Positions 19,533 to 23,317 of a stretch of DNA of 36,169 bases are shown in pieces. This DNA is from Gemmatimonadaceae bacterium (GTDB taxonomy: Bacteria; Gemmatimonadota; Gemmatimonadetes; Gemmatimonadales; Gemmatimonadaceae): NCBI GenBank assembly GCA_025453745.1, contig JALOPS010000003.1, positions 1 to 36,169 on the forward strand, in the 5' to 3' direction. The notes below the pieces were generated by a model that saw nothing but the letters and a program-made list of their open reading frames with translations, was not told the origin of the DNA and did not search any database. How positions within the stretch are numbered: position 1 is the first letter of the stretch; each line of letters begins with the position of its first letter. A program made the position numbers and the translations under genes.

Positions 19533-19559
19533 GCGTCGGCGTCGGCCCCGCGCCAACGC
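19533..19559. terminator. short hairpin between convergent genes
   Basis: GCGTCGGCG (19533-19541) and CGCCAACGC (19551-19559) form a 9-bp stem with one mismatch and a 9-nt loop, reaching the end of the next gene. It fills the 28-nt gap between convergent stops, with no U tract. Confidence 0.5.
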
Positions 19560-20665
19560 TACGGAATCACCAGCAGTCCCGACTCGCCACCGAATTCATC
19601 GGTGACGCGCGGGAGTCCGTCCGGCGCCTTCCAGGCTCCACCATCGCGCCGGACGGCCAGGCGATGGGTACCACTCGGCAGGCGGAGTCGCAGCATGTAT
19701 CCGCGCCCGTCGCGCGTCATCGCGCGTGGCTCCCAATCGGCAAAACTTCCCGTCAGTTCGGCAGCGGTGCCGCCACGTACGCGCACCACGACCTCGGCGC
19801 CGCCGTCCACCGCCTGCCACGTCACGGCGCGTGCGCCACGCCCGCTGCGCTGTACGCGCAACAACAGCGACGTCACGCGTGCCTCGGGCGCACCACGCAA
19901 CGGGTCGGCGAGCGAGACCCCGTGGCTGGCTTCGGCGGAGAGCATCGAGGCGAGCGTGACGATCACGCGCGCATCGGCCGCCGTGCGCACCGCCGCACCG
20001 TCGGGCGCGATGGGCGGTACGCCGTCGCGACGCCGCGCACTCACGATCACGTCGACGCGCGGCAGTTGTGCCACGACACCGGCAGACCAGTCGTCGTAGC
20101 GGATCGGCCGTCCCGGTGCGATGCGCAAGCTCTGTGGCCCGAAGAGCACGGGCCCGTCGGTCGACCACGCGCGCTGCCAACCGCTCCAGAGCTGGACGCG
20201 CCCGAGCTGGGTCCACGCCACACCGCCCAGCGCATCCGAGAGGAACGAGCTGCGCAACCGTTCGGTGGTGGCGCGGTCGCCCTGCAGCCAGGCACCGGCG
20301 CGCGCGCCCCACTGCACATGCTGCCGCACGGTGGCGCTCTGCGTGAAGCCCAGCCCCTGCCGCTCGAACTCCACGCGTGTGCTGCTGAACGCGGTTTCGG
20401 TGCGCAGCCACGCGCTCGGCATCACGCTGGCCAGGCCAACGAACTGCCGTGCGCCCACGCTGTCGGCCAATGTGCCGGTCACGTCGCCGCCCAGGAGCCA
20501 CCACGTTCCGCCAAGCCGCGCGCGGAGGGAACCGATGGTGGCCGGTCGTGATGGGGACTCCACCTGTTGCACGCGTGCGCTGCCGAGCTCGATCGCAAGC
20601 GTCCCCTCCTGCGCGCCGAGCGACGCGCAGGAACCCACGACACACGCGAGCAGCCGGCGAATCAC
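19559..20665 (-). CDS. exported barrel-like protein with C-terminal glycogen-binding (CBM48/AMPK-beta-like) domain
   Basis: A 368-residue protein starting at GTG 20665. The signal peptide (MIRRLLACVVGSCASLGAQ) is followed by a 260-residue region of amphipathic beta strands (SLRARLGGTWWLLGGDVTG, VQLWSGWQRAW), suggesting an outer-membrane barrel. Residues about 290-368 match a CBM48/AMPK-beta glycogen-binding fold: ELTGSFADWEP carries the first binding Trp, PSGTHRLAVRRDGGAW the HxYxFxVDGxW block with the second Trp. The Lys of the AMPK-beta site is Ala here. The gene begins 3 nt after the stop of its neighbour and is last in the sigma-factor operon. A barrel carrying this domain is unusual; glycan binding is inference. 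Confidence 0.72.
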   Translation of the reverse strand: MIRRLLACVVGSCASLGAQEGTLAIELGSARVQQVESPSRPATIGSLRARLGGTWWLLGGDVTGTLADSVGARQFVGLASVMPSAWLRTETAFSSTRVEFERQGLGFTQSATVRQHVQWGARAGAWLQGDRATTERLRSSFLSDALGGVAWTQLGRVQLWSGWQRAWSTDGPVLFGPQSLRIAPGRPIRYDDWSAGVVAQLPRVDVIVSARRRDGVPPIAPDGAAVRTAADARVIVTLASMLSAEASHGVSLADPLRGAPEARVTSLLLRVQRSGRGARAVTWQAVDGGAEVVVRVRGGTAAELTGSFADWEPRAMTRDGRGYMLRLRLPSGTHRLAVRRDGGAWKAPDGLPRVTDEFGGESGLLVIP

Positions 20666-20668
20666 ACG

Positions 20669-21274
20669 CTACGGACGCGCCGGTATGGCCGTCGATCCTG
20701 CCGGCGCCGGCAGCAGCGATCCCATCAGACCGCGCACGCGCACATCGAGCGCGGCATGCGCGCCCTGGCCACGGCGCACATCGTTGCTGACGTCGTAGCC
20801 GAGTTGAATCAACTGCTGCGGCGTCGCACGGCGGTTGAGCAGGTTGATCACTTCACGCGTCGCGAGCTTGGGCTCCACGCCGCGCGTGACGAGTTCGGTG
20901 AGTACGCCGATGGGGAGCGCGATCGATCGCTCGGGCCACATGCGACGCAGCGCCGCCAGTGCATCGGGCGAGACGCCCGCCGCGAGCGCATCGGCACCGG
21001 CGACGAGTTCCGGTTCGGTCGCGCTGCCGAGTTTCGTTTTGACGAGCTCCATGCGCGCGGTGAGGGCCTTGAGCGCCATCGCGATGCGTGGAGCCGGCGC
21101 CTGCTTGAGCTGCCCTTCGAGCGTCTTGGCGATGAGCGGAGCGGTGGGCAGTCCCTTTTGCACGGCGGCGCGCAGCTCCGTCTGCGCCAGCGTGCGCAGT
21201 TGCGGATCGCGTACGCCCAGGAGCGGATCGGGCTGACCGGTGCCCATCGTCAGCGCCAGCAACAGCGTGATCAT
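20669..21274 (-). CDS. exported helical protein of unknown function
   Basis: I do not recognise a family. The 201 residues begin with a short hydrophobic segment (MITLLLALTMGTG), which is either a brief signal peptide or anchor. The rest is strongly helical and Ala/Leu/Arg-rich, with regular helix-turn units (TAPLIAKTLEGQLKQAP, ATREVINLLNRRATPQQ) that could be a small HEAT-like or helical-bundle domain. There are no Cys. The start overlaps the stop of the CBM48 membrane protein by 4 nt (ATGA) and the CBM48 barrel gene follows 3 nt later, so it is co-translated with both and probably acts in the same envelope process. Confidence 0.7.
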   Translation of the reverse strand: MITLLLALTMGTGQPDPLLGVRDPQLRTLAQTELRAAVQKGLPTAPLIAKTLEGQLKQAPAPRIAMALKALTARMELVKTKLGSATEPELVAGADALAAGVSPDALAALRRMWPERSIALPIGVLTELVTRGVEPKLATREVINLLNRRATPQQLIQLGYDVSNDVRRGQGAHAALDVRVRGLMGSLLPAPAGSTAIPARP

Positions 21275-21861
21275 GGCACGCGCACCATCAGCACCGAGCC
21301 ACCCTGCCCGAAGTCATCATCGCTCGCGCGCGGCGCGTGCGGATCGGTGAGCCACTGCGTGCCATCGACGACAAACGCGTACACGTGGCGGCCGGGCGCA
21401 AGCGCGACATCGCTCACCCAGCGCCCGTCGCCAGCGCGCTGCATGGGCGTAGCGGTGGCGTCCCACCCGTTGAAGTCACCGACCAGGTGCACGGTCGTGG
21501 CCGCTGCGGCGTCGAACGCAAAGCGCACGGGTACCGTGGCGGGCAGCACGCCGTCGCCCGATGCCACTGGCGCGACCGGTGATGCGGGCGCCACGCGCGT
21601 CGGCTGCACCGAGTCTGTTCCACTCGTCGCGACGGCGGGCACCATCGGCGTCGCCGCCTCGCGACGCCAGACCATGATCGTCGCAGCCAGCGTCGCCATC
21701 GCGAACGCGGGCACCGTCCAGCGCTGCCACCACGGGCGACGCACCGGCGTGGCCGTCGCCGCGAGAATGCGTGCGACGAGCGCGGGGTTGCGATCGGGCA
21801 GTTGCCGCGCCGTCTCCACGAGCGGGCGCAACACGGGGTCGTGCATCACTTCGTCACGCAT
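21271..21861 (-). CDS. membrane protein with CBM48-like domain, in anti-sigma position
   Basis: 196 residues. Residues 1-48 are cytoplasmic and charged, without the HxxxCxxC zinc motif of classical anti-sigma domains. One transmembrane helix follows (about 49-66, VPAFAMATLAATIMV). The outer part (about 108-196) is a CBM48/AMPK-beta-like domain: VHLVGDFNGWDATATP has the first binding Trp, PGRHVYAFVVDGTQWLTDP the second; Lys of the AMPK site is Ala. The gene overlaps the sigma gene by 8 nt (ATGCGTGA), with GGAGGT at 21868-21873 as ribosome binding site. The position argues for a sigma regulator that senses a periplasmic glycan or partner protein; the anti-sigma role is inference. Confidence 0.78.
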   Translation of the reverse strand: MRDEVMHDPVLRPLVETARQLPDRNPALVARILAATATPVRRPWWQRWTVPAFAMATLAATIMVWRREAATPMVPAVATSGTDSVQPTRVAPASPVAPVASGDGVLPATVPVRFAFDAAAATTVHLVGDFNGWDATATPMQRAGDGRWVSDVALAPGRHVYAFVVDGTQWLTDPHAPRASDDDFGQGGSVLMVRVP

Positions 21862-22381
21862 GCGTGACCTCCACCAAACGGGCGCGCAGGGTATCCATGG
21901 CGCGTTTCACGCGCATGCGGAGCGCCGAGAGGCCGGCGCCCGTGACCTGCGCAATCTCTTCGTACGACAGTCCTTCCACGTGATAGAGCAGAAAGGCCTC
22001 GCGCTGCTCTGCCGGCAGTCGGGCGAGCACGCGATGCACATCGTCGAGCTGGTACGGATCGGGCGCGGCCGCTTCCGCGGCCAGCTCCGGTTCGAGCGTC
22101 TCGGTCATGTCGCGTCGCCGCTTCTCGAGTGCGGTGCGACAGCGGTTGCCGAGGATCTTGAAGAACCACGGGTCGAATGGTGAGCCCACCCGAAAGCGCG
22201 GCAGCGCTTTCCACACGCGAATGAAGGTGTCCTGCACGGCATCGTCCGCGTCTGGCGAGTCGCCGAGCATGCGATGCGCAAAGCGCAGCGCGCGCGGGTG
22301 CAGACGTTCGACCAGTTCGGCGAACGCCTGACGGTCGCCGTCGACAGCACGGGCGATCAGGCCGGGGTCCAGGGCATCCAC
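21854..22381 (-). CDS. ECF-type RNA polymerase sigma factor
   Basis: 175 residues with sigma-70 regions 2 and 4 only. Region 2 is at about 10-80: FAELVERLHPRALRFAHRML, then DADDAVQDTFIRVWKAL, the conserved 2.2-2.4 segment, and FDPWFFKILGNRCRTAL. Region 4 is at about 115-170: LPAEQREAFLLYHVEGLSYEEIAQ with its helix-turn-helix and SALRMRVKRAM. It starts at GTG 22381, three nt after the stop of a lipoprotein gene. It directs transcription of a specific regulon, probably including its own operon. Group assignment within ECF sigma factors cannot be made by eye. Confidence 0.95.
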   Translation of the reverse strand: MDALDPGLIARAVDGDRQAFAELVERLHPRALRFAHRMLGDSPDADDAVQDTFIRVWKALPRFRVGSPFDPWFFKILGNRCRTALEKRRRDMTETLEPELAAEAAAPDPYQLDDVHRVLARLPAEQREAFLLYHVEGLSYEEIAQVTGAGLSALRMRVKRAMDTLRARLVEVTHA

Positions 22382-22384
22382 GCG

Positions 22385-22804
22385 TTAGAGGGTCGCGCGC
22401 GCGGTTTCTCCGGGAAGGCTGGGAATCAACTGACCATCGCGCCCCGGAATCATGCGCCAGAACGGGACGATGACTTCACGAGCCTGCGGGTGCCACCCCA
22501 CCACATTCGTGAGGGGTACGCGCGCCTCCTCGCCCTGCCGGAGCGTGGGGCACGACTCGATGGTGCACACCGGAAAGAGCGCGCGCGTGATCGTCTCCGC
22601 TTCGAAGAGGCGATAGGACACGACCTGTGCGGTCGTGTTGCGCAGGATGAGCGTGCCGCTGACGAGTCGCGCGTCGAGCGTGCCGGCCGCGAGTCCGCCT
22701 GGCGCCTGGGTGGGCGCCGGATCAGGGTCCGTCGTCGCGCGCGAGTCGCCACAGGCGGTCGCGAGCGTCAGCACGGCAAGGAGGGCAGGAAGGAGTCGCG
22801 TCAT
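22385..22804 (-). CDS. small lipoprotein, paralogue of the one at 22904-23317
   Basis: A 139-residue lipoprotein with a signal peptide and lipobox LATAC (Cys18). The mature domain is a small beta-sandwich-like fold (TLILRNTTAQVVSYRLFEA) resembling an envelope beta domain, with a Cys pair in CTIESC. About half its positions can be aligned with the next upstream protein, including the motif ...RN..a......R..E..t..r..C....C.....GE.r....t..vGW...ar. I know no named family. The stop is 3 nt from the sigma gene start, so it is co-transcribed with the CBM48 operon. Confidence 0.75.
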   Translation of the reverse strand: MTRLLPALLAVLTLATACGDSRATTDPDPAPTQAPGGLAAGTLDARLVSGTLILRNTTAQVVSYRLFEAETITRALFPVCTIESCPTLRQGEEARVPLTNVVGWHPQAREVIVPFWRMIPGRDGQLIPSLPGETARATL

Positions 22805-22903
22805 GTTGGGGGCACCACGGCATCGTGGGGGTTTGAGAGCCGTACCCCGCAGCGCGGAGCGGCGTCACAGGTTTTGGGCGCTGTTCGGTCGTGCGTCCGA
22901 TTG

Positions 22904-23317
22904 CTACGCGCCGGGGCGGATCATCACGGTCTCGAGCTGGTCGGCGACCAAGGTGCCGTCGGGGCCGGGCTTCATCGTCCAGACGTGCACCACCACGTCG
23001 CGCGCGTTGGCCGACCAGCCGATGGCGTCGGTCGCGGGGAATGCGCGTCGTTCGCCTGGGGGCACCGTCGCGCAGGTCGCAACCGTGCATGGCGCAAGGC
23101 GCACGCGCGTGGAGGCCTCGAACTCGACGAGGCGGATCGCGATGGTGTGCGGGGCGGTGTTGCGCACGGTGATGGCGCCGCGGGCGACGCTGATCTGCAC
23201 GCGACCGTCGCTGGTCTGCACGTCGGTCGTGCGGGGTGGCGTGCTGTCGATCGCGGTGGCGTGAGTGCACGCCGCGGCGAGCGCGAGCATGAGGAGCAGC
23301 GACAGGTGTCTTCTCAT
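22904..23317 (-). CDS. small lipoprotein, tandem paralogue
   Basis: A 137-residue lipoprotein with signal peptide and lipobox LAAAC (Cys17). The mature domain has the same layout as the following lipoprotein: GAITVRNTAPHTIAIRLVEF, the Cys pair in CTVATC, GERRAFPATDAIGWSANARD and a similar length tail. It thus arose by tandem duplication, with considerable divergence. No named family is recognised. A GGAAC-N15-CGT element lies upstream of the start, so it may be the first gene of the sigma operon; a 99-nt gap separates it from the next lipoprotein. Confidence 0.72.
   Translation of the reverse strand: MRRHLSLLLMLALAAACTHATAIDSTPPRTTDVQTSDGRVQISVARGAITVRNTAPHTIAIRLVEFEASTRVRLAPCTVATCATVPPGERRAFPATDAIGWSANARDVVVHVWTMKPGPDGTLVADQLETVMIRPGA

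Follow-up and report, generated by a model that had tools for sequence, protein, structure and literature searches.

A recurrent ECF sigma factor cassette of Gemmatimonadota with CBM48 domains in a putative anti-sigma protein and in a predicted outer-membrane barrel

Gemmatimonadota are widespread soil bacteria, and CBM48 is a glycogen/starch module. In a 36,169-nt stretch of a Gemmatimonadaceae genome (assembly GCA_025453745.1, contig JALOPS010000003.1, positions 1 to 36,169; hereafter the window), two CBM48-like domains are encoded behind an ECF sigma factor, which raises the question of whether these domains govern the sigma factor and, if so, what they respond to. The four genes concerned, an ECF sigma factor (S), a one-helix CBM48 membrane protein (A), a helical exported protein (H) and a barrel protein (B), all lie on the minus strand (22381-19559) with intergenic gaps of -8, -4, and +3 nt (Table 1), exactly as an earlier sequence-only reading of this locus had placed them. 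That reading was right about these four genes and drew the unit too small, given that the small exported protein U1 ends 3 nt before S and that ECF-type promoter motifs precede both U1 and its paralogue U2; with these two upstream genes included, the unit extends to about 23350. U1 resembles U2 (E about 1e-20) and one gene adjoining a cassette in genome G021 (L098), and neither of the two paralogues showed a match to a known family. Relatives of the U1/U2 pair (22385-23317, minus strand) were found beside just that one further cassette, and each paralogue in the window has its own GTGAC/GGGTA promoter.

Table 1. Features of the cassette and its upstream genes in the window.
Feature	Position	Strand	Basis
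S, ECF sigma factor, 175 aa	21854..22381	-	Pfam Sigma70_r2 + r4_2, NCBIfam TIGR02937
A, inner-membrane protein in anti-sigma position, 196 aa	21271..21861	-	
A residues 1-47, presumed cytoplasmic N-terminus, presumed sigma-binding, zinc motif absent	21721..21861	-	alignment; inference from zinc-finger relatives
A transmembrane segment, residues 48-66	21664..21720	-	hydropathy
A periplasmic CBM48 / AMPK1_CBM domain, residues 110-195	21277..21534	-	
H, exported all-helical protein, 201 aa	20669..21274	-	
B, outer-membrane-type barrel protein with C-terminal CBM48, 368 aa	19559..20665	-	
B barrel, 14 strands, OmpG-like, residues 20-274	19844..20608	-	
B C-terminal CBM48-like domain, residues 279-367	19565..19831	-	
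U1, small exported protein, 139 aa, ends 3 nt ahead of S	22385..22804	-	
U2, small exported protein, 137 aa, lipoprotein-like N-terminus, paralogue of U1	22904..23317	-	
ECF-type promoter motif (T)GTGAC-N16-GGGTA, 38 nt ahead of U1	22843..22868	-	
ECF-type promoter motif GTGAC-N17-GGGTA, 8 nt ahead of U2 start codon	23326..23352	-	

The domain content of the four proteins agrees with what had been read from the letters alone. S is an ECF sigma factor consisting of sigma regions 2 and 4 only (Pfam Sigma70_r2, E 1e-19; r4_2, E 1e-15). A displayed a single hydrophobic segment in a hydropathy scan (residues 48-66), followed by a domain that two Pfam models score above their cut-offs (AMPK1_CBM, 39.9 bits; CBM_48, 34.4 bits), confirming the call of a one-helix membrane protein with a CBM48 domain. 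Both models were matched by 37/37 A proteins, and the A family profile, when compared with the PDB, matched AMPK-beta and branching enzymes, with AMPK-beta1 (E 1e-11) aligned across the whole domain. By the same hydropathy scan, which is a crude one, 24 of the 37 A homologues carry one hydrophobic segment and 11 carry two. No recognisable anti-sigma domain and no FecR model was detected in the A protein of the window by Pfam/NCBIfam profile scan.

H, taken previously for a helical exported protein, was indeed predicted to be all-helical (nine helices, pLDDT 93); it had no match in Pfam or NCBIfam, and no significant or convincing match among solved structures by sequence or by fold. B was predicted (pLDDT 88) to form a barrel of 14 strands with a small beta domain at its C-terminus, OmpG being the nearest PDB structure, and given the even number of strands both ends of B should be periplasmic. 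The profile scan of B revealed no plug and no TonB-receptor match. Its C-terminal domain falls just short of the CBM48 cut-off in the window (25.5 versus 26.8 bits by hmmscan; 28.8 bits in a six-frame search); 27 of 36 B relatives match CBM48 at E<=0.01, the profile of the B end domain matches that of the A CBM48 domain (98.6%, E 8e-16, profile-profile comparison), and it also matches AMPK-beta (E 0.002). Membership of the B end domain in CBM48 is secured, at the level of sequence profiles, by these matches among relatives and profile comparisons, and with it the earlier call of a barrel ending in a CBM48-like domain; the CBM48 assignment held for both proteins. In one relative, a second H-like gene follows B (L120:8421-9218).

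The arrangement is not peculiar to the window. Among 59 relatives, A was present in 48 genomes, H in 45, and B in 43, and we retrieved 40 cassettes from the family and order of the window. Their genes, in every case on a single strand, are ordered S-A-H-B in 34 cassettes, B-S-A-H in five, and S-A-H in one; thirty-nine of the 40 carry all four genes, and the S/A (-8) and A/H (-4) overlaps recur. This gene order is far above chance and is conserved over genera, families, and the class; neither this check nor that of the CBM48 assignment refuted the sequence-only reading. Since these loci had been selected by their matches, an independent scan of the genome collection with A alone served as a check. 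In most Gemmatimonadota records, it again recovered S, A, H, and usually B, interrupted by contig ends alone; the exceptions were a locus with another order (L149), one without B (L155), and one containing CBM enzymes only (L156), and one record (L140) duplicated a contig already among the retrieved cassettes. H alone was found in 186 of the 298 genomes of a phylum sample, including families of the class beyond the order of the window, and many genomes hold two to five cassette copies. B appears dispensable, being absent from the L117 cassette, from L155, and apparently from a second phylum. Two candidate gene fusions were also inspected. An S-A fusion in L123 was rejected, as the sigma C-terminus reads as a frameshift, and in L124, where H and B share one open frame, a lost stop codon is as likely as a fusion, given a second signal-peptide-like stretch inside the frame.

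A shared promoter motif indicates how the cassette may be switched on. We searched the regions upstream of the cassettes for spaced word pairs, with ten shuffles as a control, and found GTGAC...GGGT in 23/43 regions, compared to nine for the best pair of any shuffle. The resulting consensus, TGTGACG-N16/17-GGGTA, scored at p<=0.05 in 34/42 upstream regions (leave-one-out scoring). The window contains two matches (0.02 expected), which precede U1 and U2, with none directly before S. S probably recognises the shared motif, and the promoter would then be autoregulated. The -10 element varies by clade (GGGTA, GGGTT, or GGGTC), which perhaps keeps paralogous sigma factors apart. In several cassettes (e.g., L106, L109, L114, L116, and L129), it ends ~12 nt ahead of the start codon, a proximity that suggests leaderless or very-short-leader transcripts; the -10 element in this clade is GGGTTATA. 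A regulon beyond the operon found no backing in the genome of the window, where eight motif matches compare with 14 in the backwards control and only the two cassette matches are convincing. Two leads were noted there, a lipoprotein-like gene 8 nt behind a motif match (L243) and a sigma-like gene (L242). Given so few genome-wide matches, fewer than in the backwards control, the main target of S is probably its own operon, U2-U1-S-A-H-B.

We consider it probable that these genes constitute a self-regulating ECF sigma/anti-sigma cassette reporting on the cell envelope, and we hold with similar, measured confidence that A restrains S, that the CBM48 domain of A monitors, in the periplasm, which state H and B are in, and that S once released drives its operon up through positive feedback. 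In such a system, A would hold S at the inner membrane via its short cytoplasmic N-terminus and present its periplasmic CBM48 domain as the sensor end, and H together with the barrel B, whose CBM48 domain would hang into the periplasm, would make up the remainder of the sensing chain. The trigger would be an altered A-H-B contact, brought about by a ligand or shared glycan, or by a changed amount or assembly of B. A would then lose its activity, probably through proteolysis of the kind known from other membrane anti-sigma factors, and the freed S would transcribe from TGTGACG-N16/17-GGGTA, chiefly its own operon including U2 and U1 in the window. The observed basis of this proposal is the gene content and order, the profile-defined domains, the predicted barrel fold, and the promoter motif. 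A more specific form, namely TonB-independent surface signalling in which an OmpG-like barrel and an anti-sigma factor, each with a CBM48 domain, are coupled in the periplasm directly, via a glycan, or via H, and so gate an ECF sigma factor, is a serious possibility, if one that falls somewhat short of likely.

The residues of the glycan platform (AMPK-beta1 numbering; 37 A and 36 B domains, 73 in total) bear on the alternatives and point in more than one direction. Trp100 is kept in 73/73 domains (37/37 A, 36/36 B), and Trp133 in 26/37 A and 34/36 B domains, being missing from 11/37 A. Lys126 occurs in none of the 73, and Asn150 in 18/37 A and 0/36 B domains. The alanine that had been reported as shared at the AMPK-beta Lys position is present in both domains of the window, and as a family trait it failed in B. 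The A domains of the five B-first cassettes form one clade in which all five lack Trp133; A is therefore without half of the canonical platform in these cassettes, which nevertheless persist.

Control by a glycan is weakly favoured by such sequence features, and the invariant Trp100 and the frequent Trp133 would fit a reading in which the CBM48 domains of A and B share one glycan ligand, periplasmic or imported, and its binding is itself the signal, as for RsgI, which offers a precedent (PMC12203970). In two other genera, TGTGAC-N16-GGGTA also precedes SusC-like receptor genes (L267:539-565 and L273:1501-1527, in G011 and G022), a lead only that would point the same way. Against it, Lys126 is lost throughout, Asn150 is gone from every B, Trp133 is gone from the A proteins of the B-first clade, and no recurring carbohydrate-active genes were seen among the recurrent neighbours scanned beside the cassette (fadB-type beta-oxidation, zinc carboxypeptidase, proline dehydrogenase, helicase, and hydrolase genes); we give glycan binding as the signal some chance, though one well short of even. 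Nine of the retrieved loci share a fadB-type beta-oxidation gene cluster, and in the two of these that were checked the cassette lies directly downstream of the fadB-type gene (L112:3383-5737 and L126:8725-11010).

The second alternative takes the domains as protein-protein modules, by which the cassette would sense the assembly or amount of the barrel B. RseA senses unfolded porins, and the RseA/DegS route uses a free C-terminal barrel strand; B, which ends in its CBM48 domain, offers no free strand of this type, and the retention of Trp133 in nearly all B domains is odd for a pure protein contact. The cotranscription of B with the sigma factor, the position of B ahead of the sigma factor under the same promoter in the B-first cassettes, and the dispensability of the Trp pair of A in that whole clade are consistent with such a monitor, to which we give about the same chance as to glycan sensing. 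The histories of the domains were compared as well. A recent CBM48 duplication between A and B was rejected, as the domains fall into two separate groups (100/99 support) and appear to be old, separate lineages. In a comparison of trees, direct co-evolution of the A and B CBM48 domains (partial r 0.14, interval -0.09 to 0.32) had no support beyond that of the remaining pairs. With a partial r of 0.29 (interval 0.13 to 0.46) for the A domain and H, the trees hint, with wide and overlapping intervals, at pairings of the A domain with H and of H with the barrel, rather than of the two CBM48 domains.

The proposal that A restrains S draws on more distant relatives. One match fell in a record that carries the label Deltaproteobacteria (L150), and a search of its phylum returned more CBM48 membrane proteins beside an H relative. 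In six such stretches (Deltaproteobacteria and relatives), an ECF sigma factor is present in 5/6 and an H relative in 6/6, in the orders S-A-H and S-H-A, and no barrel protein was seen in any of the six. The H proteins are alike over a 64-residue core that surrounds K-x2-EG-x2-K, and one comparison with the second phylum (A3 versus A6) gave 96% and E 1e-9. The CBM48 proteins carry HxxxCxxC near the N-terminus in 6/6 aligned sequences, recognised by Pfam as zf-HC2 in 4/6. In loci L213, L217, L218, L220, and L221 of this phylum, an ECF sigma factor lies beside an anti-sigma protein that has both a zinc finger and CBM48, together with an exported protein of helical type. The core thus seems to be a sigma factor, a CBM48 anti-sigma factor, and H, with B and the short non-zinc N-terminus as features of the group of the window. 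Because CBM48 proteins beside an ECF sigma factor and an H relative carry a zinc anti-sigma finger in the second phylum, it is very probable that A acts as the anti-sigma factor of S; these proteins are the strongest evidence for this role, though the profile comparison (A1 versus A5) aligned the CBM48 part alone. With a cytoplasmic part of ~47 residues that lacks the zinc motif, sigma binding by A rests on position, on the distant relatives, and on analogy with the two-helix CnrY, and we infer it, like the periplasmic side of both CBM48 domains, from knowledge of these families. That S is instead controlled elsewhere, with A, H, and B merely an envelope structure that S produces, would suit the short cytoplasmic part that matches no anti-sigma model and is quite improbable, given that A directly follows S with a conserved translational overlap and that distant CBM48 homologues adjoining ECF genes bear zf-HC2. 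Taken as a whole, the sequence-only interpretation is partly borne out, and the route from envelope to sigma factor that it suggested has good support from the conserved order, the distant zinc fingers, the shared promoter, and the barrel fold of B.

Among known systems, FecI/FecR/FecA (PMC9249621) is alike in uniting in one cluster an ECF sigma factor, a one-helix regulator of the inner membrane whose periplasmic domain is C-terminal, and an outer-membrane barrel that bears a periplasmic domain. It differs in that FecA belongs to the TonB-dependent receptors and has its signalling domain at the N-terminus, whereas B resembles OmpG, has 14 strands, and bears its periplasmic domain at the C-terminus; CBM48 domains stand in place of the FecR and signalling domains, the helical H is additional, and the operon is apparently driven by its own sigma factor, in contrast to fecIR, which is transcribed by sigma-70 (PMC9249621). 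With no TonB receptor and no FecR domain, the cassette would work like FecIRA yet is not a member of that family. The RsgI anti-sigma-I factors of Clostridium thermocellum (PMC12203970) similarly are membrane anti-sigma factors with a CBM-type sensor outside the membrane and occur as several paralogous pairs per genome. The cassette differs in its ECF sigma factor (not sigma-I), its CBM48 (not CBM3, CBM42, or PA14), its Gram-negative envelope, and its partner barrel with a second CBM48 domain, and models of the RsgI N-terminal and periplasmic autocleavage domains are absent from the Pfam/NCBIfam matches of the cassette proteins; with these features it would work like RsgI and again is not a member.

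At the level of the sigma-binding part, the short N-terminal stretch of A, which precedes one membrane helix, resembles the class II anti-sigma factor CnrY, the two helices of which occupy the places of class I helices 1 and 4 (PMC7406223). The zinc-containing class I domains (PMC7406223) are represented by the Hx3Cx2C finger of the distant CBM48 relatives, unlike the A protein of the window, which has neither a zinc motif nor detectable sequence similarity to CnrY or class I domains. Class I anti-sigma domains adjoin about 79% of Gemmatimonadota ECF sigma factors, and CBM48 is unmentioned in that work (PMC7406223). The CBM48 domains of the cassette match those of AMPK-beta and isoamylase by profile over the entire domain and differ from them in that Lys126 is replaced, the location is periplasmic by prediction, and the second Trp is optional in A. 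In the literature searched, from which many journals are missing, we found no paper on this cassette and none linking an anti-sigma or sigma factor to CBM48, AMPK1_CBM, an isoamylase early set domain, or a glycogen-binding domain.

Since the cassette recurs, often several times within a genome, and has a predicted promoter, a single reporter strain could reveal its signal. If the proposal is true, CBM48 would join the sensors of transmembrane sigma control, and such control would have an outer-membrane partner beyond the TonB-receptor family.
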